Below, in pieces: positions 18,144-50,547 of a DNA stretch of 64,000 nt. Made by a program: the position numbers and the translations under genes. A model generated the notes under the pieces. It worked only from the letters and a program-made list of their open reading frames with translations, did not search any database and was not told where the DNA came from. Within the stretch, counting starts at the first letter, position 1. Each line of letters starts with the position of its first letter. Origin of the DNA: Gammaproteobacteria bacterium. GTDB lineage: Bacteria; Pseudomonadota; Gammaproteobacteria; Pseudomonadales; Pseudohongiellaceae. Location of the stretch: NCBI GenBank assembly GCA_008081045.1, contig VMDC01000029.1, positions 1 through 64,000 of the forward strand, given 5' to 3'.

Positions 18144-18620
18144 ATGCAGGGTCAAAAAAACGTTGTTTCGGCGTTGAATAAGATACTCAAACTCGAACTG
18201 ACATCGATCAATCAATACTTTCTTCATGCACGGATGTACCGGAACTGGGGTATCACCCGATTGAATGAAGCGTGCTACAACAAGTCCATCAAGGACATGA
18301 AGCAGGCTGATGCCTTGATGAATCGAATTCTTTTTCTGGAGGGCCTTCCGAATCTGCAGGATCTTGGCAAGCTCTATATCGGCGAACACACCGCCGAGAT
18401 GCTGAGTCTGGATCAGCGGTTCGAGCTTGAGCAGATTCCCGTGCTGAAAGAGGCAATCGCGCTTTGTGAGCTTGAGAAAGATTATGTCAGTCGTGAGCTG
18501 CTGGAAGACATACTCGAAGCGGAAGAGGACTATATCGACTGGCTGGAAGCGCAGGAATATCAGATCGAACATATGGGTATTCAGAACTATATCCAATCCC
18601 AAACCGTTGACGGAGACTGA
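18144..18620 (+). CDS. bfr: Bacterioferritin, heme-ligand subunit lacking ferroxidase histidines
   Basis: A 158-residue bacterioferritin subunit. ELTSINQYFLHARMYRNWG and RILFLEGLPNLQDLGKL are diagnostic. Met52, the axial ligand to heme at the subunit interface, is present. The ferroxidase ligands are incomplete: Glu18, Glu94 and Glu127 remain, but position 51 is Asp, 54 is Gln instead of His, and 130 is Tyr instead of His. This subunit therefore probably cannot oxidise iron alone. ATG 18144 follows GAGGAA. The second subunit gene starts two bases after this stop, and the pair likely forms a mixed 24-mer iron-storage shell. A candidate Fur box lies upstream. Confidence 0.93.
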   Translation: MQGQKNVVSALNKILKLELTSINQYFLHARMYRNWGITRLNEACYNKSIKDMKQADALMNRILFLEGLPNLQDLGKLYIGEHTAEMLSLDQRFELEQIPVLKEAIALCELEKDYVSRELLEDILEAEEDYIDWLEAQEYQIEHMGIQNYIQSQTVDGD

Positions 18621-18622
18621 TC

Positions 18623-19111
18623 ATGAAAGGCAATCAGAAGATTATTGACGCATTGAATGGTTTGCTGGCGATGGAGCTGGCTGCAATGGATCAGTATTTC
18701 ATTCACTCCCAGATGTATCTGGATTGGGGATTACAAAAACTGTTCGACCGTATCAGTCATGAATTCGATGATGAGAAGGGTCATGCCACTGTCCTGATTG
18801 AGCGCATGCTCTTTCTTGAAGGCGTACCAGACATGGTGACGCGCGATGGCTTCAAGGTGGGCTCTGACATCAAGTCCATGCTGGAAAGTGATTTGCGCGT
18901 GGAATATGAGGTGGCAAGCCGGCTTAAGAGTGCGATTGCGCTGTGCGAACAGGAACGGGATTTTGTCACCCGGGATGCGTTGGTCCCCTTACTCGACGAT
19001 ACCGAAATGGATCACGCGCACTGGCTGGAGCAGCAGCTGGGTATGATCGAGCGTCTGGGCATCGAGCTTTATACCCAGTCACAACTCGGCGAGGCGAAGC
19101 CCCATGCCTAG
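18623..19111 (+). CDS. bfr: Bacterioferritin, ferroxidase subunit lacking heme Met
   Basis: A 162-residue partner of the preceding subunit. Here the di-iron ferroxidase ligands are complete: Glu18, Glu51, His54, Glu94, and Glu128/His131 (shifted by one through a local insertion). The heme ligand Met52 is replaced by Lys in DDEKGHA. This is the mirror image of the upstream subunit. Mixed bacterioferritins made from a heme-type and a ferroxidase-type subunit are known from Magnetospirillum, Neisseria and Pseudomonas. ATG 18623 lies two bases after the upstream stop, so translation is probably coupled. Confidence 0.93.
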   Translation: MKGNQKIIDALNGLLAMELAAMDQYFIHSQMYLDWGLQKLFDRISHEFDDEKGHATVLIERMLFLEGVPDMVTRDGFKVGSDIKSMLESDLRVEYEVASRLKSAIALCEQERDFVTRDALVPLLDDTEMDHAHWLEQQLGMIERLGIELYTQSQLGEAKPHA

Positions 19112-21833: not shown

Positions 21834-22418
21834 ATGAACAGAATTAAACACACTGCCGCTTTCATTACGGCAGGCCTGCTCAGTGCCACAGGCGCTACCG
21901 CGCAGACCGATCAGGCAACGATTGACAAGGCCCTGTCGCCGCTGCCGATGGATCTTCGCGCTGATGCCACCGTTTATACCTATGACGATGAAGGCAACCG
22001 TGTGACCTTGAAAGTCGGCAGTAATCACGTTGAATGTCAGCCCACTGACGATGAAGGTTTCACCCGCTGCGGACCTGTTTCCCAGCGCGCCAGACGTGAC
22101 CTTCAGGCCAAATTGTCTGCGCAGGGTATGGAAGGCGATGAACTGCAGATGGCGTTGCAACGCGCTGAAGACGCCGGTGACATTCCTCCGCGGCAGTTCG
22201 GTGCGCTGAGCTATCGACGCTTCGACACTTCTGATCGCATTCAGTATCTGTTCGTGGTGTCGCTTCCCAACGCCACTGCGGAACAACTGGGTATGCCTAC
22301 CGGCTCTCAGCGAGATAATTCGCTTGCTGGCGAGGGCACTCCCTGGATGATGCGGTCCGGCACTTCGGGTGCGCATCTGATGATTCCTGTTAACGGCACG
22401 GAATACTCCAATCAATAG
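21834..22418 (+). CDS. Exported protein of unknown function
   Basis: A 194-residue protein with a signal peptide (HTAAFITAGLLSATGATAQ). The mature part reads MDLRADATVYTYDDEGNRVTLKVGSNHVECQPTDDEGFTRCG in its first half, with two Cys, and ends with GTPWMMRSGTSGAHLMIPVNG. I do not recognise the family, and no cofactor motif is visible. It precedes the Tat/DsrE-like gene by 31 bases on the same strand, so the two are probably co-transcribed. ATG 21834 follows GGGAGATTGTT. Confidence 0.65.
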   Translation: MNRIKHTAAFITAGLLSATGATAQTDQATIDKALSPLPMDLRADATVYTYDDEGNRVTLKVGSNHVECQPTDDEGFTRCGPVSQRARRDLQAKLSAQGMEGDELQMALQRAEDAGDIPPRQFGALSYRRFDTSDRIQYLFVVSLPNATAEQLGMPTGSQRDNSLAGEGTPWMMRSGTSGAHLMIPVNGTEYSNQ

Positions 22419-22449: not shown

Positions 22450-23154
22450 ATGAGTGAGGACCGGAATGCTCCGCGGACCCACCGTCGGCGCTTTCTAGCG
22501 GGTGTCGGCGTGGCTGCAACTGCGGGTGCCCTGGCGGCCGGCAGTCGCGCTGCCAAGGCGCAGGGGCTGGATGGCGAGGGGTTTCGACCTCCTCGCCACG
22601 ACAAGGACGCCTGGATGGGGAGTCTGGCCGGCGATAAGGATCATCGGGTTTTTATCGATTCAGCGAGCGGGGTGGGGGGCGCCACCGCCGTGCTTTATGC
22701 AAACAACATTCTTTCTGCGCATCAGGAAGATTACGCGGGTGCAGATGATGAGTACGCGATGATTGTCTGTTTCCGGCACGCCGCAACCGCATTAGGCTAC
22801 ACCGATGCCATGTGGCAGAAGTACGGAGAAGTGTTCAGCCGTGTCACCAGGCTCTCTGTTCCCGGTGGGGACAGCCCGCTTTCGGTGAATCCGCTGAACC
22901 TTGAAGGGGCGAATTTCGGCAATATCGGCAATACGCTTGATCATGTTCGCGGGCGCGGCGTTCAATTTGCCATCTGCAATCGTGCAACGCACTCCATGTC
23001 ACGCCGGCTCTCTGCGGTTACCGGACAGTCTGCAGCCAGCCACTACGCGGAGTTGATACAGGAAAACATCGCCACCAGTCGGTTTGTGCCTGCCGGCGTA
23101 ATGGCGGCCACCCGGTCGCAGGAGTATGGCTACAGCCTGCTCTATGCAGGCTAG
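22450..23154 (+). CDS. Tat-exported DsrE-like protein
   Basis: A 234-residue protein with a twin-arginine signal (THRRRFLAGVGVAATAGALAAG). The mature part contains MIVCFRHAATALGYTDAMWQKYGE and a later RGVQFAICNRATHSMSRRLS segment, which resemble the strand-loop pattern of DsrE/DsrF-like sulfur-relay proteins, with Cys in both segments. Exported members of this type are poorly studied. ATG 22450 follows GGGAGGAAGG. It is convergent with the tsdA operon, so a link to sulfur metabolism is possible but only by position. Confidence 0.6.
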   Translation: MSEDRNAPRTHRRRFLAGVGVAATAGALAAGSRAAKAQGLDGEGFRPPRHDKDAWMGSLAGDKDHRVFIDSASGVGGATAVLYANNILSAHQEDYAGADDEYAMIVCFRHAATALGYTDAMWQKYGEVFSRVTRLSVPGGDSPLSVNPLNLEGANFGNIGNTLDHVRGRGVQFAICNRATHSMSRRLSAVTGQSAASHYAELIQENIATSRFVPAGVMAATRSQEYGYSLLYAG

Positions 23155-23288: not shown

Positions 23289-24242
23289 TTACTCCAGCCC
23301 GCGGTAAAAATCACGGATCGGCTGGAACGGCCCCAGTCGATGCTGTTCGATCGGGAATTCATCAGCGTAGGGCGGATAGGGGCTGTCGACTGGCTTATTT
23401 TTTAAATCAGGATAGTCGACTTCCAGATTCGGTCGCTGCGGCCTTTCGTGGGAATTCATATACGCTGCGACATCGTAGGCCTCGTCGTCAGTCAGGTCTG
23501 GCTTGCCCAGAGGCATCCGTGCCTTGATAAAGCGCGCCGCAGTCAGAAGACGCGTCATGCCCGCGCCGTTGTTGAAACTGTCCGGCCCCCATAACGGGGG
23601 AAACAGATACCCTTCTGATCTATCAATCGCAGCCAGCAGGCCCTGACCGTCGGACCCGTGACAGACTGCACAATTCGCCTCAAAGACCAGCCTGCCCGCA
23701 GCCACATCAGCGGCCCGGTCAGGCTCAGTAAACGTGGGTGGCTCGTCCGGCATCTGGCGGGTCTCTCCCATGACAGCGTACTGATTATTGAGCTGTCTGA
23801 TATACATTTCCATGGAGCGCATCTGAACGCTCTCCCGATCCAGTTCCCTGCCGTTCATACTGCGCGTCATGCAGCCATTGATGCGGTCTCTGAGATCTCC
23901 CTCCCTGCCGTCGCGGCCGGAAAATCGGGGATAGCGCTGGGCAGCCTGTAACAGCGACAGCGTGCCGGGCCGGGTGCCGGTGTCGAGGTGACAGGAGGCG
24001 CAGTCCATGGAAGTGCCGGTATATCGCATGGTCGGGTCTTCATGGGCCGGGCCCATATTCCGCGCGGTGTCACGAATAAGCTGGCGTCCATATTCCACAC
24101 TGGGTTCGCTGTAGCGTTCTGCTGACGGTTCGCTTTGTAACCACAGCGTGCCCAGAACCACGCACAGGCCGATGGCGGCGGCAATAAGCAGTGCGGCCTG
24201 CGCAACGCCACGCTGTGGGTGAAGAACTCGCTCTCGGCTCAT
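23289..24242 (-). CDS. tsdA: Thiosulfate dehydrogenase/tetrathionate reductase TsdA-like diheme cytochrome c
   Basis: A 317-residue protein with an uncleaved-looking N-terminal membrane segment (residues 15-36) and two heme c sites, CASCH (81-85) and CAVCH (191-195). The TsdA hallmark is present: RINGCMTRSMNG with Cys124, the unusual cysteine ligand of the active-site heme. YLFPPLWGPDSFNNGAGM and the terminal DVAAYMNSHERP complete the family pattern. TsdA oxidises two thiosulfate to tetrathionate or does the reverse. Its ATG overlaps the stop of the 56-residue membrane peptide gene, and a fused cbb3-type oxidase starts the operon. This suggests thiosulfate oxidation coupled to oxygen reduction. 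Confidence 0.88.
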   Translation of the reverse strand: MSRERVLHPQRGVAQAALLIAAAIGLCVVLGTLWLQSEPSAERYSEPSVEYGRQLIRDTARNMGPAHEDPTMRYTGTSMDCASCHLDTGTRPGTLSLLQAAQRYPRFSGRDGREGDLRDRINGCMTRSMNGRELDRESVQMRSMEMYIRQLNNQYAVMGETRQMPDEPPTFTEPDRAADVAAGRLVFEANCAVCHGSDGQGLLAAIDRSEGYLFPPLWGPDSFNNGAGMTRLLTAARFIKARMPLGKPDLTDDEAYDVAAYMNSHERPQRPNLEVDYPDLKNKPVDSPYPPYADEFPIEQHRLGPFQPIRDFYRGLE

Positions 24243-24409
24243 GGGTCGCTCTCGTCTGGTTGTTGCTGACTATCATACGCGTCCAGCTGACGCTGGAAAA
24301 TATGCTTTGGCTGCTCAATACTCTGGCGCCATCCGGGTTTCAGCCAGTACAGCAGGCTGTAGCTGACAACGGCACCAAGGGTCCCATAAACAATCAGTGC
24401 GCTGATCAT
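24239..24409 (-). CDS. CcoQ/CcoS-like small membrane peptide (56 residues)
   Basis: A short gene coding 56 residues beginning MISALIVYGTLGAVVSYSLL, with one transmembrane helix, then YWLKPGWRQ and a polar charged tail ending QPDESDP. Its ATG overlaps the stop of the fused oxidase (ATGA, 24406-24409) and its stop overlaps the ATG of tsdA (24239-24242). This double coupling argues that it is a real gene. Position and layout resemble CcoQ, the small single-helix subunit of cbb3 oxidases that stabilises the complex. Sequence similarity to CcoQ is too short to prove it. Confidence 0.7.
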   Translation of the reverse strand: MISALIVYGTLGAVVSYSLLYWLKPGWRQSIEQPKHIFQRQLDAYDSQQQPDESDP

Positions 24410-27099
24410 TCGCCAGCTCCTGTTTCAGGCTGATAAAGCGTTTGCAAATAACTGGCGACAGCCCTGATTTCAGTCTCGCTGAGCCGGTCGCCCCAGGGCG
24501 CCATGGTGGTTCCGGCAACGCCCTGATTCAGAACCCTGAGGCTGGCTGCCATGCTGAGCCGCTCCCGGGTGAAGTCGGTCGGTGGAATTGGGATGGGCAG
24601 ATTCGCGACCGCAAAGCCGTTCCCATCACCTGCCTCGCCGTGGCATTCGGCGCAGTGTGTCTGAAAAACTTCGGCGCCGAGTGTGGTGTTGCTGTCGCTG
24701 GGGATTGGCTCGATTTTGCTGAAGCTCTGGATGACCTGAACCAGCGCGGCCAGCTGCGCAGGGCTGTGGTCGCGCCAGCCCGGCATCGAGCTGCCGTATA
24801 CCCCGTTATAGAGTATGTCAGCCAGCAAATCTGTGCGGTACTCATGCTCTGTCAGGTTGACCGGCGCCGGCTGCAGCCAGGCTGCGGCAGGGCCATCACC
24901 GGCGCCGTCTTCGCCATGGCAGCCTTCGCAATTTTGTGCCCACAGCCTGCGGCCTTCGCGGGCAGGTGCCTGATCCCGCAGGCTGGGGGCGTTGCCACGG
25001 GGACGAGTGCGCGCTGGATGCGCATTAAGCTGGTCGGCGTCCAGCGACATCAGAGTCCACTGATCGTCCCCGGCAGCCTGGCGCATAGCGATCTCGCCTT
25101 CTGGCCACGCCAATTCCCGACTTCGACCTAAGGTGTTGAGATAGGCAACCAGATCCAGTGCCTCCTGGCGGGGCCTGGTGGGAGTGCCATCGAAAAATTC
25201 GGGATAGGAGGGCATGATTGACCTGGGTACCACGCTCCGGGGCGCGAACAGATGAGCCAAGTGCCACTGATCCGTGCGGGTATTCGCTGCTCTGGACAGA
25301 TCGGGGCCAATCCGCCGTGTCCCGAGCATGTGAGGAGTTTCCATGCTGTCTTCCCAGGCCAGAGTCGCTGCACCGAAGCGTTCGATGTCGGCCTCGACGA
25401 ACCGGATCTGTTGCGTGTGACAATAGGCGCAGCCTTCTCTGGCATAGATTTGCCGACCCCGGTGCTCAGAGGCAGTCAGTTCCAAACTGGCCGTCGGTGC
25501 CAGTGATGCAATCTGATCATTCAGGGTCGACCGGGGCAGCAGTCCCAGCAGAGAAACCGAAAGAATGAAGAAGGTGACTCCCGCAACTGAGGCTGCAATA
25601 TAGGACATCCGCAGCGCTTTAAGCGGATTCTGATGACTTTCGCCGGTGACTGACTGTCCAGCTTGACTGATCGTTGCCCTGGCTTCGGCCAGTGCTCTTG
25701 CGCCGGCTCCTCTTGGCCCCTTGAGCAAGCCGTAGCACAACAGACCGAAGCCAGCGGTGACCGGAATGGCGGAAAGGGTTCTGATCACCCAGTAGGGCTC
25801 GGAGGCGCGCAGCGAGACGACCCATGGCGCCCCGGATTTCCAGAGGTCCCCCTGCGCGAGACCGGCGAGCGTCAGATCACTGACCATCACGACGATGCCG
25901 ATCGTGGTCAGCCAGTATGCGGCGTTAATAGCTCCAGCGTGATACGGGGCATCCGTCATTTTCTGCCAGGCGTGAAGCAGTCCTGCGATGCTGGCAAAGG
26001 TCGCGAAACCCAGCATCGCGAGATGAGAATGCCCAATGACGTAGTCGGTGAAATGAATCGTCTCACTGAACCCCATGTTGGCCTGTGCGGAGCCTTGCAG
26101 GCTGACGATGAGGTAGAACAGCACAGACGTTGAGGCAAAACGCAGCGCAGGATCTTTCGCCAGCCAGCCGGCGCCGCGCTGCGAAAGCATGAGATTGCTC
26201 ACCACTACCACCACTACCAGGCCCAGGAGAGTCGAGGCCAGAATTGCGATGGTCTGGGTGGCCATGGGGATGACCGAGTAAATGTAGTGGTGGGTTCCGT
26301 TCAGAGGGTAGAGAAAGAACAGGCCCCAGAATCCTAACATGGACAAAAAATGGCTGAAGACCGGGCGACCCGTACTGGCCGGAATGACATAGTAAAGAAT
26401 CGCCAGTGCCATTGGTGTCACAAAAAGGCCGACAGCATCATGAATCCAGAGTCCACTGAAGGCAGCACCCGCAGCCCCGGGTATAAATTCCGGAACGATG
26501 TTGCCCATCGGAAAACTCATCAGTGAGAACACCAGCCCACCGATGATGTACCAGCTTGAGACGTACAGATTTTCAAATCCGCGTCTGAAAAAGGGCGGTA
26601 AGAATTGAATTGCCGCGAGCGTGAGCCCGCCAATCATGACAGCATCGACCAGCAGCGGAAATTCTGCCCATTCCAGTGGCTGGCTGTAGCCGTTAAGTAC
26701 CAGAAGCCATCCGGGCAGGAGTACACCGAAATTCCACAGACCAAACAGAAACCAGCCAAGCTTTTCACTGGTGACGGGTCTCCCACTTAAAACCGGTACG
26801 GCGAGATAAAGAAACGCGATAAACGCATTGCCCAGCCATCCCAGCATGATGCCCTGTGTGTGAGCGAAGCGGAGGCGGCCCCAGCTGGCTATCTCGCTGG
26901 TTAACTCTGGCAGGAAAAACTGCAAGGAAGCGACGATTCCGAAGGTAACCGCCAGCAGCAGCATGGTGAATGCGGCGATCCCGTGGGCACGAATCAGGGC
27001 GTTATGGGTAATCGCGTCTGGCAAAGGGTGGTTTTGACCTTCGGGCGCAGGTGAAGGTGGCGATTCGCGGACGGCGCTGGCGTCAAGTACTTCAGACAA
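24406..27099 (-). CDS. ccoNOP fusion: Fused cbb3-type cytochrome oxidase: CcoN-CcoO-CcoP-like in one chain
   Basis: An 897-residue protein. Residues about 30-465 are a heme-copper oxidase subunit I: His80 (HTQGIMLGW), His220 (WIHDAVG), the crosslink Tyr264 (FFLYPLNG), His270-271 and the His357/His359 pair (IGHSHLAM). After a linker, a new membrane helix (499-521) leads into a CcoO-like domain with CAYCH (557-561) and RIGPDLSR. Two more cytochrome c domains follow, CEGCH (724-728) and CAECH (816-820), matching CcoP. Normal cbb3 oxidases have these as separate subunits. The start is TTG 27099 with AGAGAG upstream. It would reduce oxygen at the membrane and accept electrons from TsdA or other cytochromes. 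Confidence 0.85.
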   Translation of the reverse strand: MSEVLDASAVRESPPSPAPEGQNHPLPDAITHNALIRAHGIAAFTMLLLAVTFGIVASLQFFLPELTSEIASWGRLRFAHTQGIMLGWLGNAFIAFLYLAVPVLSGRPVTSEKLGWFLFGLWNFGVLLPGWLLVLNGYSQPLEWAEFPLLVDAVMIGGLTLAAIQFLPPFFRRGFENLYVSSWYIIGGLVFSLMSFPMGNIVPEFIPGAAGAAFSGLWIHDAVGLFVTPMALAILYYVIPASTGRPVFSHFLSMLGFWGLFFLYPLNGTHHYIYSVIPMATQTIAILASTLLGLVVVVVVSNLMLSQRGAGWLAKDPALRFASTSVLFYLIVSLQGSAQANMGFSETIHFTDYVIGHSHLAMLGFATFASIAGLLHAWQKMTDAPYHAGAINAAYWLTTIGIVVMVSDLTLAGLAQGDLWKSGAPWVVSLRASEPYWVIRTLSAIPVTAGFGLLCYGLLKGPRGAGARALAEARATISQAGQSVTGESHQNPLKALRMSYIAASVAGVTFFILSVSLLGLLPRSTLNDQIASLAPTASLELTASEHRGRQIYAREGCAYCHTQQIRFVEADIERFGAATLAWEDSMETPHMLGTRRIGPDLSRAANTRTDQWHLAHLFAPRSVVPRSIMPSYPEFFDGTPTRPRQEALDLVAYLNTLGRSRELAWPEGEIAMRQAAGDDQWTLMSLDADQLNAHPARTRPRGNAPSLRDQAPAREGRRLWAQNCEGCHGEDGAGDGPAAAWLQPAPVNLTEHEYRTDLLADILYNGVYGSSMPGWRDHSPAQLAALVQVIQSFSKIEPIPSDSNTTLGAEVFQTHCAECHGEAGDGNGFAVANLPIPIPPTDFTRERLSMAASLRVLNQGVAGTTMAPWGDRLSETEIRAVASYLQTLYQPETGAGE

Positions 27100-47484: not shown

Positions 47485-48077
47485 TGAATGCAACCGCAGA
47501 CAGGATTCTCGATGCCGGTCAGGAGCTGATTCAGACCGGGGGGTTCTCGGCGATGAGCTTTCAGGACATAGCCTCTGAAGTCGGCATCAGAAAGCCCAGT
47601 ATCATCCACCACTTTCCCACCAAAGCGGAACTGGGTGTTGCGATCATCCGTCGTTACCGAGATACGTTTGCCGCCCAACTGCAACAGATCAGCGAGGACC
47701 CTGCCAAGTCCTCCTGGGATGCATTGGAGTTCTACTTCTCACCCTATCTGTTTTTAGCTTCCACCCCGGACAAAGTATGTCTTTGCGGCGCACTCGCGGG
47801 TGAGATACCTGTTCTGCCGGAAGTCATGCGCGTTGAAGTGAAGCAATTTATTGAAGCGCATCAGCGATGGCTTGAGGAGATCTTGCGAGAAGGAGTCGAA
47901 CGCGGCGAACTAATGCTCATCGACTCGTCGAAATCTTTGTCCCGGGTAATCTTTAATTCTCTCCAGGGTTCTTTGCTCGTCAGGCGTTCGACAGAGGATG
48001 TAAGCCAGTTGAAAGAGATTATCAATGCAATGCGAAAATTAGTGAAAAGCGAATCTAGTATCCAACAGATTCGATAA
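47484..48077 (+). CDS. TetR/AcrR-family regulator
   Basis: A 197-residue repressor. The N-terminal helix-turn-helix reads ADRILDAGQELIQTGGFSAMSFQDIASEVGIRKPSIIHHFPTKAEL, textbook TetR. The C-terminal part contains CLCGALAGEIPVLP, a pattern found in AcrR-like ligand-binding domains. Its ATG overlaps the stop of the hydrolase gene (TGATG), so they are translated together. The operator at 46331-46348 is its probable target, giving autoregulation. The last 23 bases overlap the end of the convergent, AT-richer hydrolase gene. Confidence 0.92.
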   Translation: MNATADRILDAGQELIQTGGFSAMSFQDIASEVGIRKPSIIHHFPTKAELGVAIIRRYRDTFAAQLQQISEDPAKSSWDALEFYFSPYLFLASTPDKVCLCGALAGEIPVLPEVMRVEVKQFIEAHQRWLEEILREGVERGELMLIDSSKSLSRVIFNSLQGSLLVRRSTEDVSQLKEIINAMRKLVKSESSIQQIR

Positions 48078-49050
48078 ACGCTTTGATACTCGCGACGCCG
48101 TTGCGGCTCCTTGCAAGATCACAATGGTCAACTCCGTCTAATTCTATGAATTCTGAGTTGGGAATATTGGAATGCAAGAACCGTCCCATTCGAATCGGAA
48201 CCGCGAGATCTCCAGTAAAGTGCACAATTAAAGTAGGACAAGTAATTTTTGAAAGTAATGGCCTTACATCGAGCGTCTTCATGTATTCGACAATCTGGAT
48301 CATCGATCTCTTGTCCGCAAGTAATTTTTCGAACCCGCGATAAGTCTCATCATCAATAGTTTCGGCGCTAATACTGGGGAATAAGATATGTCTGCCGTTT
48401 CCTCTGCCCCATGATTCGGCAAGGCCATCGAGAGTCTTGTTTGAAAACCCCATTGGGAAGTCATCGGATCGTGAGAACTTCGGTGTTGTTCCGAATAAAA
48501 TCAACCCGCGAACCCGATGAGGATTTTCCACAGCATATTTAATGCTCATTGGGCCGCCTTCCGATATGCCCATTAAGAAAAAGCTATCTGAGCCAGAAGC
48601 ATCAGCCACACACTCGATGTCACTGACCCTATCCTCCATTGTGGCAACAGAGCTCGTTGGATCGGACAATCCTTGGCCTCGTTTATCGAAGTTAATAACT
48701 TTTGCGAAACGGGCAAGCCCATCCATCGAATCCTTGATCGGAGGCAAATTAGATGAAACATGGAGATTGGAAATGATGCCTGGAGTTACTATCAGCGTTG
48801 GGTTTTCTTTACCGAATACCGAATACGCTATATTTATCCCTCCAGAGTTTCCGTAATTGATGGTATGGGGGGATGGGGCGCTCAGCTCAGCCAGTGTGAG
48901 CCGCTCCGAGAGACTACCTGGCTTTGCGGGTTTTGACATCCGAGCGATGAAATTCTTTCCAGCTGTGGCAAAAAAGCCAACAATCACGGCGAGTGCGGCA
49001 AGGGCACTAAGCAGACTTTCATTCTCTGTAAAAAAATCTAAAGCTTGCAC
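48055..49050 (-). CDS. Membrane-anchored alpha/beta hydrolase, likely acquired
   Basis: A 331-residue protein with an N-terminal membrane helix (LLSALAALAVIVGFFATAG). It keeps the hydrolase core: LIVTPGIISNLHVSS, VINFDKRGQGLSDP, the nucleophile elbow LMGISEGGPM and a C-terminal GVDHCDLARS His. This layout is close to hydrolases found beside adenylate cyclase-like domains, but no cyclase is present. The gene and its flanks are visibly AT-richer than the surrounding DNA and the codon choice differs (many AAT, ATA, TTA-type codons), suggesting recent transfer. It overlaps the 3' end of tetR by 23 bases. Confidence 0.8.
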   Translation of the reverse strand: MQALDFFTENESLLSALAALAVIVGFFATAGKNFIARMSKPAKPGSLSERLTLAELSAPSPHTINYGNSGGINIAYSVFGKENPTLIVTPGIISNLHVSSNLPPIKDSMDGLARFAKVINFDKRGQGLSDPTSSVATMEDRVSDIECVADASGSDSFFLMGISEGGPMSIKYAVENPHRVRGLILFGTTPKFSRSDDFPMGFSNKTLDGLAESWGRGNGRHILFPSISAETIDDETYRGFEKLLADKRSMIQIVEYMKTLDVRPLLSKITCPTLIVHFTGDLAVPIRMGRFLHSNIPNSEFIELDGVDHCDLARSRNGVASIKAFIESVGY

Positions 49051-49125
49051 AAGTTAGTCCTCGGAATGAGCTTAATAGCAGATCGATTGGCTTATTCTGA
49101 CGCTAGTAAATTATTGGAAAGCATA

Positions 49126-50547
49126 CTAAGGATTGCGAGATCTAGTTTCTTCGGTTGCTTTTCTCCATTCATATTCATATGTATCCGGAAGCACTTTAGT
49201 ACCAGAGCTGAACTTGAACGGAACACCGGCGATGCCGCTTTCATACTCTGCTTCGAGGTAGTAGGCCACGTATCCTGACTCGGGTTGTTCCATCTGGATT
49301 TCGTAGACGCCGGGCGCCGTGGCACGGATTTCGGAACTGCTGTAGGCACGACCGATTTTTGCCTGAGTGAAGTTTCGTTCAGATTCGTTGGTGGCCTGCC
49401 AGAGCAGGACTTTTGTCGGCTCGTCCAGTGAAAACAGGGTGATGGTCCCAGTGTCGGAAACACGCCACGAGTAGCGCGGCAGTGGCACGTTATAGACAAC
49501 TGAGTGATACCAGGAGTCCAGACTGTCTATTACATCGGTATCGCGCATGCTGTGATTGGAGTTGGGCACGTACCGCAGATGCTTCTCTCCGACAAGATCG
49601 TCCCAGTAGAATTGCCATGAATCGGGCAAGAAAAACTCGTCTCCCGTAGAGTTAAGGATGTATTTGGGCAAGGTAAGCCGTTCCCGGTATTCATAGGGTT
49701 CTACCATGTCCATCAATTCATCCCATTCGGGCGTGTCTATCCAGTTGACCACGCCGCTGGTGACATAATCGATGACGGCCAGCGAATAGGCTCCGTATAC
49801 GGAGTAGTGATGCTTGAAAGAATCACTGATATTGAGCATATCGATTACAATCGGAGCGATCGCAATCACTCTCGGATCTACTATCGCGGTTGTCCAGGTA
49901 GTCCAGCCGCGCTTTGAACCGCCTGCGACAACAAATTTGTCTACGGTCAGTGCGTTTTCAGATGTGCTCGATACCACAGAGGTGACTGTATCCATGGCCC
50001 TGACGGCAGATTTTGTCATGGGCAGCCTCAGCGGCCACTTTTCATCACCGGTGCGGAAATATTTGTCCCAGGTGTAAGCGATGATTGCATCTTCGGTTCT
50101 TCCGATATCAGGGCTGTCAGTAAAACGGAGAGGTTGATTCGGCACCATGTAAAGCGTGCTGACGACGGTCTGGGTTCTGAGTGCCCGGGTGATATCACTT
50201 TCAGGCGCCGTCTCAGGCAGACTGTTCGACTTGCTGCCTCCGGTGATATACAGAAAAGCAATGTTGCTGTTGACAGTATCCGGAATGGTCACTGTCATGT
50301 AGTGTTGCCAGATGGGGTCGTTGACTTCAGCCTTGGTCAGCCATTGCTGAGAAGTCATTTCTATTATCAGTGTCCTGTATCCCGGTCCTGCAACGGTGTC
50401 GGCAACGGTATAGGCATAATTCTCGTCTGCGGTGTTTACATATTCGTCCAGGGCTGTGTAGCTCAGACCGTTCGCCAGAACGACCGCCGAATGTGTGATG
50501 AGCAGCCCGAAAGCAATCCGCCTGAGTATTCTGATGATGTCTGTCAC
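49126..50547 (-). CDS. PhoPQ-activated pathogenicity-related (PqaA) family protein
   Basis: A 473-residue exported protein (signal LRRIAFGLLITHSAVVLANG). TALDEYVNTADENYAYTV, QQWLTKAEVNDPIWQHYMTVTIPD, and VVAGGSKRGWTTWTTAIVDPRV follow the PqaA family, an alpha/beta hydrolase relative whose elbow reads GGSKRGW with Ser. FLPDSWQFYWDDLVGEKHLRYVPNSNHSM supplies the later conserved block. In Salmonella the founding member is PhoPQ-regulated and linked to antimicrobial peptide resistance. Its enzymatic role is unclear, and no PhoPQ site was tested here. Start is GTG 50547. Confidence 0.85.
   Translation of the reverse strand: MTDIIRILRRIAFGLLITHSAVVLANGLSYTALDEYVNTADENYAYTVADTVAGPGYRTLIIEMTSQQWLTKAEVNDPIWQHYMTVTIPDTVNSNIAFLYITGGSKSNSLPETAPESDITRALRTQTVVSTLYMVPNQPLRFTDSPDIGRTEDAIIAYTWDKYFRTGDEKWPLRLPMTKSAVRAMDTVTSVVSSTSENALTVDKFVVAGGSKRGWTTWTTAIVDPRVIAIAPIVIDMLNISDSFKHHYSVYGAYSLAVIDYVTSGVVNWIDTPEWDELMDMVEPYEYRERLTLPKYILNSTGDEFFLPDSWQFYWDDLVGEKHLRYVPNSNHSMRDTDVIDSLDSWYHSVVYNVPLPRYSWRVSDTGTITLFSLDEPTKVLLWQATNESERNFTQAKIGRAYSSSEIRATAPGVYEIQMEQPESGYVAYYLEAEYESGIAGVPFKFSSGTKVLPDTYEYEWRKATEETRSRNP

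Follow-up and report, generated by a model that had tools for sequence, protein, structure and literature searches.

In canonical cbb3-type (C-family) oxidases, electrons arrive from the bc1 complex via cytochrome c, and the membrane anchor of CcoP holds the usual proton-entry residue. To our knowledge, the electron acceptor of the thiosulfate dehydrogenase TsdA and the conservation of energy in tetrathionate-forming thiosulfate oxidation remain open in many bacteria. Passages of PMC9237845 state that the acceptor of TsdA differs between organisms, and present TsdB as the immediate acceptor and as a suggested donor to cbb3 oxidases. Here, we analyzed a 64,000-nucleotide stretch of DNA (contig VMDC01000029.1, positions 1 to 64,000; hereafter the window) from a gammaproteobacterium of the Pseudohongiellaceae, in which a single-chain C-family oxidase (FUS), a small membrane peptide (PEP) and a TsdA-type enzyme are encoded in a row. 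From the gene content and its conservation, it is likely that this module is a dedicated electron line from thiosulfate to oxygen.

The three genes lie on the minus strand. FUS (897 aa, TTG start, 24406..27099) was defined from its open reading frame (ORF), Pfam matches, alignments and a predicted model; PEP (56 aa, with one predicted membrane span, judged by eye, 24239..24409) from its ORF and alignments; and the TsdA-type diheme thiosulfate dehydrogenase (317 aa, 23289..24242) from matches in the Protein Data Bank (PDB) and its ligand residues. The ORFs confirm the row described in the initial annotation, namely an 897-residue chain, a 56-residue membrane peptide and TsdA. Both junctions in the window are 4-bp overlaps, as had been reported, but this spacing is not universal: over 16 loci, which include some genomes fetched twice, the FUS/PEP junction measures -4 or -8 bp, and the PEP/TsdA junction varies from -17 to +13 bp.

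FUS is a single open frame without internal stops. Since the window was drawn from a draft genome (2.75 Mb, 62 contigs, 96% complete), it could be argued that separate genes had been joined in error by assembly or annotation. We regard this as almost certainly wrong, because a FUS-type fusion (63-100% identity) is carried by 18 of the 61 genomes of the genus Pseudohongiella searched, a set that includes drafts of varying completeness, and one of the carriers is a single contig. Stop-free fusions with 63-98% identity recur across many assemblies, among them OX638378.1, a 6.59-Mb record titled chromosome 1, and others with single-cell-style names (AG-...). A further search returned 12 loci, of which 11 are clear relatives (≥65% identity) titled Pseudohongiella, Gammaproteobacteria or Proteobacteria. 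The concern that the long frame might be artefactual, raised when it was first annotated, is thereby removed.

FUS consists of a CcoN-like part (residues 1-465), a linker (~465-500), a CcoO-like part (500-650) and two cytochrome c domains (~705-790 and ~800-890). Pfam COX1 matched residues 37-444 (E 1.2e-59) and FixO (PF02433) residues 508-636 (E 1.1e-34), and Cytochrome_CBB3 matched two stretches. Conservation was read from alignments of 10 fusions, 12 peptides, 11 TsdA and 7 proteins of a neighboring family (intact copies only); the tree included 8 genus fusions. The CxxCH motifs, previously placed at 557, 724 and 816, are invariant in the 10 aligned fusions, as are C557-H561 and M629 of the CcoO part. 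The catalytic residues align with those of CcoN, a point on which the first annotation could have failed: all 8 canonical CcoN rows compared have the identical residue at H80, H220, Y264, H270, H271, H357 and H359, and these seven residues together with E143 and E146 are identical across the Pseudohongiella fused, the unfused and the canonical rows. The aligned histidines are ligands of CuB and the hemes, and the tyrosine of helix VII is catalytic.

In the predicted model of FUS (pLDDT 73, pTM 0.64, 17 alignment rows; low confidence in the linker and in much of the CcoO part), the first 459 residues contain twelve long helices; these are followed by a linker that is helical in part, a further long helix at 493-533, and the cytochrome domains. 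Its core is best matched by cbb3 CcoN chains (TMt 0.82-0.86), and the PDB profile search also returned cbb3 chains as the best matches by sequence. Nitric oxide (NO) reductase structures come next in fold, and the CcoN part, which forms a separate long branch in the tree, is ~25-32% identical to canonical CcoN; on these grounds FUS might be taken for an NO reductase, or for some other enzyme of the superfamily, rather than an oxygen reductase. This is very improbable, given that cbb3 chains lead in both sequence and fold, that Tyr264 is retained, and that residue 224 is a glycine, as in canonical CcoN, where NO reductases have a glutamate.

The initial annotation had read the chain as CcoN, CcoO and two CcoP-like cytochromes. 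All of these domains were found, but the N-terminal membrane domain of CcoP (FixP_N in Pfam) had no match in FUS. The CcoP model TIGR00782 scored 59.8 bits against a cut-off of 179.95; by this model the C-terminal domains are not CcoP, but they may work like it. Their assignment as TsdB was also rejected: 5lo9, which includes a TsdB domain, is absent from the 23 PDB matches at E 0.001, and the domains are for this reason called CcoP-like. As far as its sequence tells, FUS is a CcoN joined to a CcoO with two cytochrome c domains (CcoO-c-c) rather than to a full CcoP. The CcoG/CcoS models (TIGR00847, TIGR02745) had no match in the source genome, which is a weak absence in a 96%-complete draft, and matched 1 and 6 of 14 control genomes; assembly of the enzyme may thus differ from that of canonical cbb3. 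For SoxB, the host gave one weak match under the cut-off, and matches of a similar kind occur in 10 of the 14 control genomes.

PEP was considered as a CcoQ and rejected, since the CcoQ/FixQ model (PF05545) reached at best E 0.042 in one of 12 PEP members, and not in that of the window; FixP_N gave E 0.049, also in one of 12. Its tail is conserved at P25, R28, E32, P34, K35 and F38. In every genus locus read whose contig continues past the fusion, PEP lies between FUS and TsdA; the peptide of locus L017, overlooked by tblastn, was found by direct reading. PEP is homologous to a 63-aa protein that follows CcoO-c-c on plasmids of P. fungorum (Paraburkholderia) and A. ascendens (Acetobacter), and the plasmid peptides have I6, V7, L23, P25, R28, E32, P34, K35 and F38 in common with it.

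The best PDB matches of the third protein are the TsdA structures 5lo9 (E 2e-38) and 4v2k (E 9.1e-38). Both heme-binding motifs (C81-H85 and C191-H195) and the hallmark Cys124, which had already been pointed out, do not vary among the 11 cognate and 6 more distant sequences aligned; Cys124, the heme-1 ligand, corresponds to the cysteine within DCFERS of A. vinosum TsdA (4v2k), and Met243 (heme 2) is invariant in the aligned TsdA. Passages of PMC5146829 describe TsdA as bifunctional, with some members acting mainly as tetrathionate reductases, and report that a change at Lys208/Asn254 and the surroundings of heme 2 affect the direction of catalysis. In the window TsdA the corresponding residue is Arg242, and the six distant TsdA aligned have Asn, like Asn254 of C. 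jejuni. TsdA might hence run reductively at low oxygen, with tetrathionate reductase and oxidase as alternative sinks of one cytochrome pool. We consider this improbable, because its place in a row of overlapping genes with an oxygen-reductase-like chain, and the presence of a sulfite dehydrogenase-like protein in a related locus (L105, below), better fit an electron-donating enzyme.

Within the genus, the cognate TsdA (E below 1e-180) was found in 14 of the 61 genomes, all of which carry the fusion, and it adjoins the fusion in 14 of the 14 genomes whose contig runs beyond the latter. Down to ~63% identity, the gene order is retained and the junctions stay close or overlapping. In one genome (G011) the fusion is divided over two contigs. 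DN375, the only flanking gene tested outside the module, was found only in relatives of the L003/L040 type and not in the equally close L036.

The oxidase type also occurs unfused. In L105, a locus from a Pseudomonadaceae-like genome, it follows two cytochromes and a SorA-like sulfite dehydrogenase (L105:2601-8498; NF052245, E 2.6e-141, 471 bits, under the cut-off of 600). The neighbors are transposase-like genes (judged from ORFs), and only L105's own genome among the 149 of its genus holds this oxidase type at E 1e-60; the cluster looks horizontally acquired. At the same threshold another family (295 genomes) gave 4 matches, 34-35% identical. In a plasmid collection, 379 records matched the L105 CcoN at E 1e-20; among the best 40 of these, 7 are 57-60% identical (4 from P. 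fungorum, 2 from K. xylinus and 1 from A. ascendens) and 33 are ≤35% identical. Three of the seven close loci were opened, and the proteins of two (L119 and L121) were compared. On the P. fungorum and A. ascendens plasmids the order is diheme cytochrome, TsdA, CcoN, CcoO-c-c and the 63-aa peptide, with identities (L119/L121) of 31-40% for TsdA, 57-59% for CcoN, 40% for CcoO-c-c and 31-43% for the small peptide. Close by are a Pfam DsrE gene with a signal-like start, judged by eye (E 4.7e-8 and 9.3e-9), and two substrate-binding proteins; the P. fungorum neighborhood also includes genes annotated for sulfur transport and as transferases. Plasmid pGX3 of K. xylinus (Komagataeibacter) has a like layout by annotation only, with a hypothetical protein annotated in the place of DsrE. 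The plasmid CcoN and CcoO-c-c genes overlap by 4 bp, so that the loss of one stop could fuse the two; in canonical cbb3 both ends to be joined lie on the cytoplasmic side.

These rows bear on whether FUS is a general-purpose cbb3-like oxidase, fed by bc1 via cytochrome c as the canonical enzyme is, next to a TsdA that is merely co-regulated and has a soluble cytochrome of its own. Such an ordinary role would be useful to a host in which a search for COX1-family oxidases, which does not extend to the bd type, showed just one besides FUS. We find it unlikely, given that TsdA or a SorA-like protein stays beside this oxidase type in distant bacteria and on plasmids, that the fusion was not found in 43 of the 61 genus genomes, drafts included, and that a long branch separates FUS from canonical CcoN. 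Judged from these comparisons, FUS is a fused member of a sulfur-linked lineage of C-family oxidases, with a candidate partner protein.

The three-part fusion, called unusual in the initial annotation, proved to be rare but not unique. At least two further single chains of the same domain order, L106 (genome G336) and L107 (genome G803), of 976 and 1038 codons, were found in overlapping samples of 369 class and 398 phylum genomes, in which two candidates were scored per genome, so that the numbers are lower bounds. They group with unfused CcoN/CcoO-c-c pairs of another clade. One origin for all 10 fused rows was tested and rejected (approximately unbiased test, p 4.2e-6; 38-row tree with long branches). 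The L106/L107 fusion is apparently independent of that in Pseudohongiella, and, as the sequences group on a tree with long branches, the three-part fusion arose at least twice. We recognized no printed CcoN-O-P fusion or TsdA-oxidase gene row in the open-licence literature among the matches listed, which supports its absence weakly. In two loci of the clade to which L106 and L107 belong (L108 and L109; L110 alike by eye) a SoxA/TsdA-like monoheme cytochrome precedes the oxidase, the row being a twin-arginine translocation (Tat) metallophosphoesterase (by Pfam for L108), the cytochrome, CcoN and CcoO-c-c; these rows are a possible further dehydrogenase-oxidase pairing.

Convergent with TsdA, on the plus strand, lies a gene that the initial annotation did not mention (22450..23154). 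Its product, 234 aa long, carries a Tat signal and has a predicted model that suggests a DsrE-like fold; it also matches NF052225 weakly. It is 49-98% identical to 6 other intact copies. Foldseek placed two structures at the top for the model (pLDDT 76), namely 1l1s with prob 1.00 and E 0.024 and 2pd2 with prob 0.98 and E 0.081; we take both to be DsrE-like, and the titles of both say unknown function. Searched as a profile against the PDB, the family had no match up to E 1. NF052225, a thiosulfate dehydrogenase model presumably of the A. ferrooxidans AFE_0042 type, matched 7 of 7 members at E up to 1 (best 4e-8), and the window protein scored 21.2 bits against a curated cut-off of 300 bits. 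A thiosulfate dehydrogenase of the AFE_0042 type from A. ferrooxidans is described in parts of PMC6335251. In the open-licence literature we found no description of this Tat protein as a partner of TsdA.

The Tat family occurs in 22 of the 61 genus genomes, namely the 18 with the fusion and four (G026, G041, G053 and G060) with a distant TsdA only, and was undetected in the other 39. Its co-occurrence with TsdA or the fusion gave a Fisher value of 4.5e-17 (TsdA at E 1e-30, Tat family at 1e-5; uncorrected for relatedness), and the gene adjoins the fusion in the same 14 genomes as TsdA does. In G026, G041 and G053 the distant TsdA, a SulP-like permease and the Tat protein form a row without a fused oxidase (L126:6140-9261, L127:6772-9883 and L128:7128-10232), from which it follows that the family accompanies TsdA in this genus even without the oxidase. 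The L127 permease was tested as SulP, and those of L126 and L128 were judged by position and sequence start; the row is probably a separate thiosulfate module. In G060 the two genes are on different contigs. Among 36 genomes of other families, none has the Tat family and 4 have TsdA, so TsdA does not depend on the Tat protein everywhere. The source genome holds a second copy of the family (G000:C31:8338-9003, L131), as do many fusion carriers, and no sulfur gene is obvious alongside it by eye.

Next to the Tat gene is UP (194 aa, signal-like start, 21834..22418, plus strand), marked by its conservation beside the module: it adjoins the Tat gene in near relatives, is divergent and upstream of FUS in far ones, and in G040 also neighbors two paralogues of the Tat protein (L132:6321-8612). 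Neither UP nor the Tat family has a Pfam match. Elsewhere in the window, positions 48001-50000 show a local dip in G+C (0.477 against ~0.56 elsewhere), and at 18144-19111 two adjoining ORFs of 158 and 162 aa look bacterioferritin-like when their first residues are read by eye.

From sequence, gene order, conservation, co-occurrence and ligand residues, all read directly, we infer that TsdA works oxidatively and docks directly onto an oxidase whose substrate is oxygen, and that the peptide and the DsrE-like protein have roles in the process. TsdA in the periplasm would join two thiosulfates into tetrathionate, and its electrons would pass to the tethered cytochromes of FUS, then to CcoO, heme b and finally the b3-CuB center. 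The small peptide would be a constant accessory subunit of this oxidase type, and the Tat-exported DsrE-like protein might work with TsdA on the sulfur side, for instance by binding or moving a sulfane group. The path from thiosulfate through TsdA to oxygen had been proposed in the initial annotation; the unfused plasmid rows lend it independent support, while the electron transfer itself would still be a deduction. A broader proposal is put forward tentatively: a C-family lineage dedicated to inorganic sulfur, with an exchangeable TsdA or SorA placed directly on the oxidase and a peptide in place of the CcoP anchor and its proton-entry residue, would in this case have formed a one-chain thiosulfate-oxygen respirasome with docked TsdA, and the DsrE-like Tat protein would be an unrecognised TsdA partner.

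Several observations weigh against a dedicated thiosulfate-oxygen line or its proposed partner. Four genomes (G005, G022, G040 and G045) carry the fusion without a cognate TsdA; in these the fusion is cut at the contig end on the TsdA side, and the matches of G005 and G022 start at bases 4 and 1. In four fusion genomes the contig with the fusion stops short, so that Tat copies were seen on other contigs only. In two near relatives, G010 (C198:5761-6336) and G047 (C98:47431-48118), in-frame stops interrupt the Tat gene beside the fusion, and in G044 this gene is partial. Its kinship with DsrE is uncertain as well: the two Foldseek E-values are weak, Pfam DsrE had no match at E up to 1 in 7 of 7 family members, and the plasmid DsrE proteins gave no significant BLAST match to the family (best E 0.97). 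L105 has no TsdA match outside cytochrome domains, which implies that this oxidase type does not go with thiosulfate exclusively. The direction of TsdA cannot be read from its sequence, because the Lys208/Asn254 position is Arg242 and some TsdA are mainly reductive. The genus counts, finally, are corrected neither for relatedness nor for draft quality.

If a dedicated thiosulfate-oxygen line is what the module encodes, the gene row suggests a likely answer to the question of the TsdA acceptor, and it is small enough to be expressed whole. A one-chain C-family oxidase would make it easier to study, by structure and by mutation, how protons are taken up without CcoP, and the DsrE-like Tat protein is a candidate partner for TsdA. 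The genus Pseudohongiella is common in marine data sets, and the module may consequently bear on thiosulfate turnover in oxygenated sea water.

Set beside the described systems, FUS resembles CcoNOQP (3mk7, 8smr) in its CuB and heme ligands, helix VII tyrosine, paired glutamates, CcoO and two further cytochrome c domains. It differs in being one chain instead of three, in its CcoN (~25-32% identical), in having neither a CcoP membrane-domain match nor a recognisable CcoQ, and in a host draft (96% complete) without CcoG/CcoS model matches. With the CcoN-CcoO (PRK14485) and CcoO-cytochrome c (PRK14486) fusions it shares the adjoining domains that are joined, whereas FUS has both joins in one chain and scores 268.5 and 153.4 bits, respectively, far under the model cut-offs of 1080 and 447. 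L106 and L107 likewise combine N, O and a pair of cytochrome c domains within a single open frame, but belong to another CcoN clade (32% identical), and in the 18-19 kb fetched around them TsdA matches only the fusion's own cytochrome domains. The window TsdA has the two CxxCH motifs, heme-1 cysteine ligand and heme-2 methionine of TsdA and TsdBA (4v2k, 4wq7, 5lo9), and departs from them in having a hydrophobic stretch at the N-terminus and, at the C-terminus, ~45 additional residues that are conserved; unlike in TsdBA, no cytochrome gene of the TsdB kind adjoins it, its neighbors being the peptide and oxidase genes. The module also resembles the plasmid row, where TsdA, CcoN, CcoO-c-c and the small peptide are adjacent and a DsrE-family gene is nearby, although there CcoN and CcoO-c-c are separate, a diheme cytochrome occupies the TsdB position, TsdA lies upstream, and two substrate-binding proteins are close.

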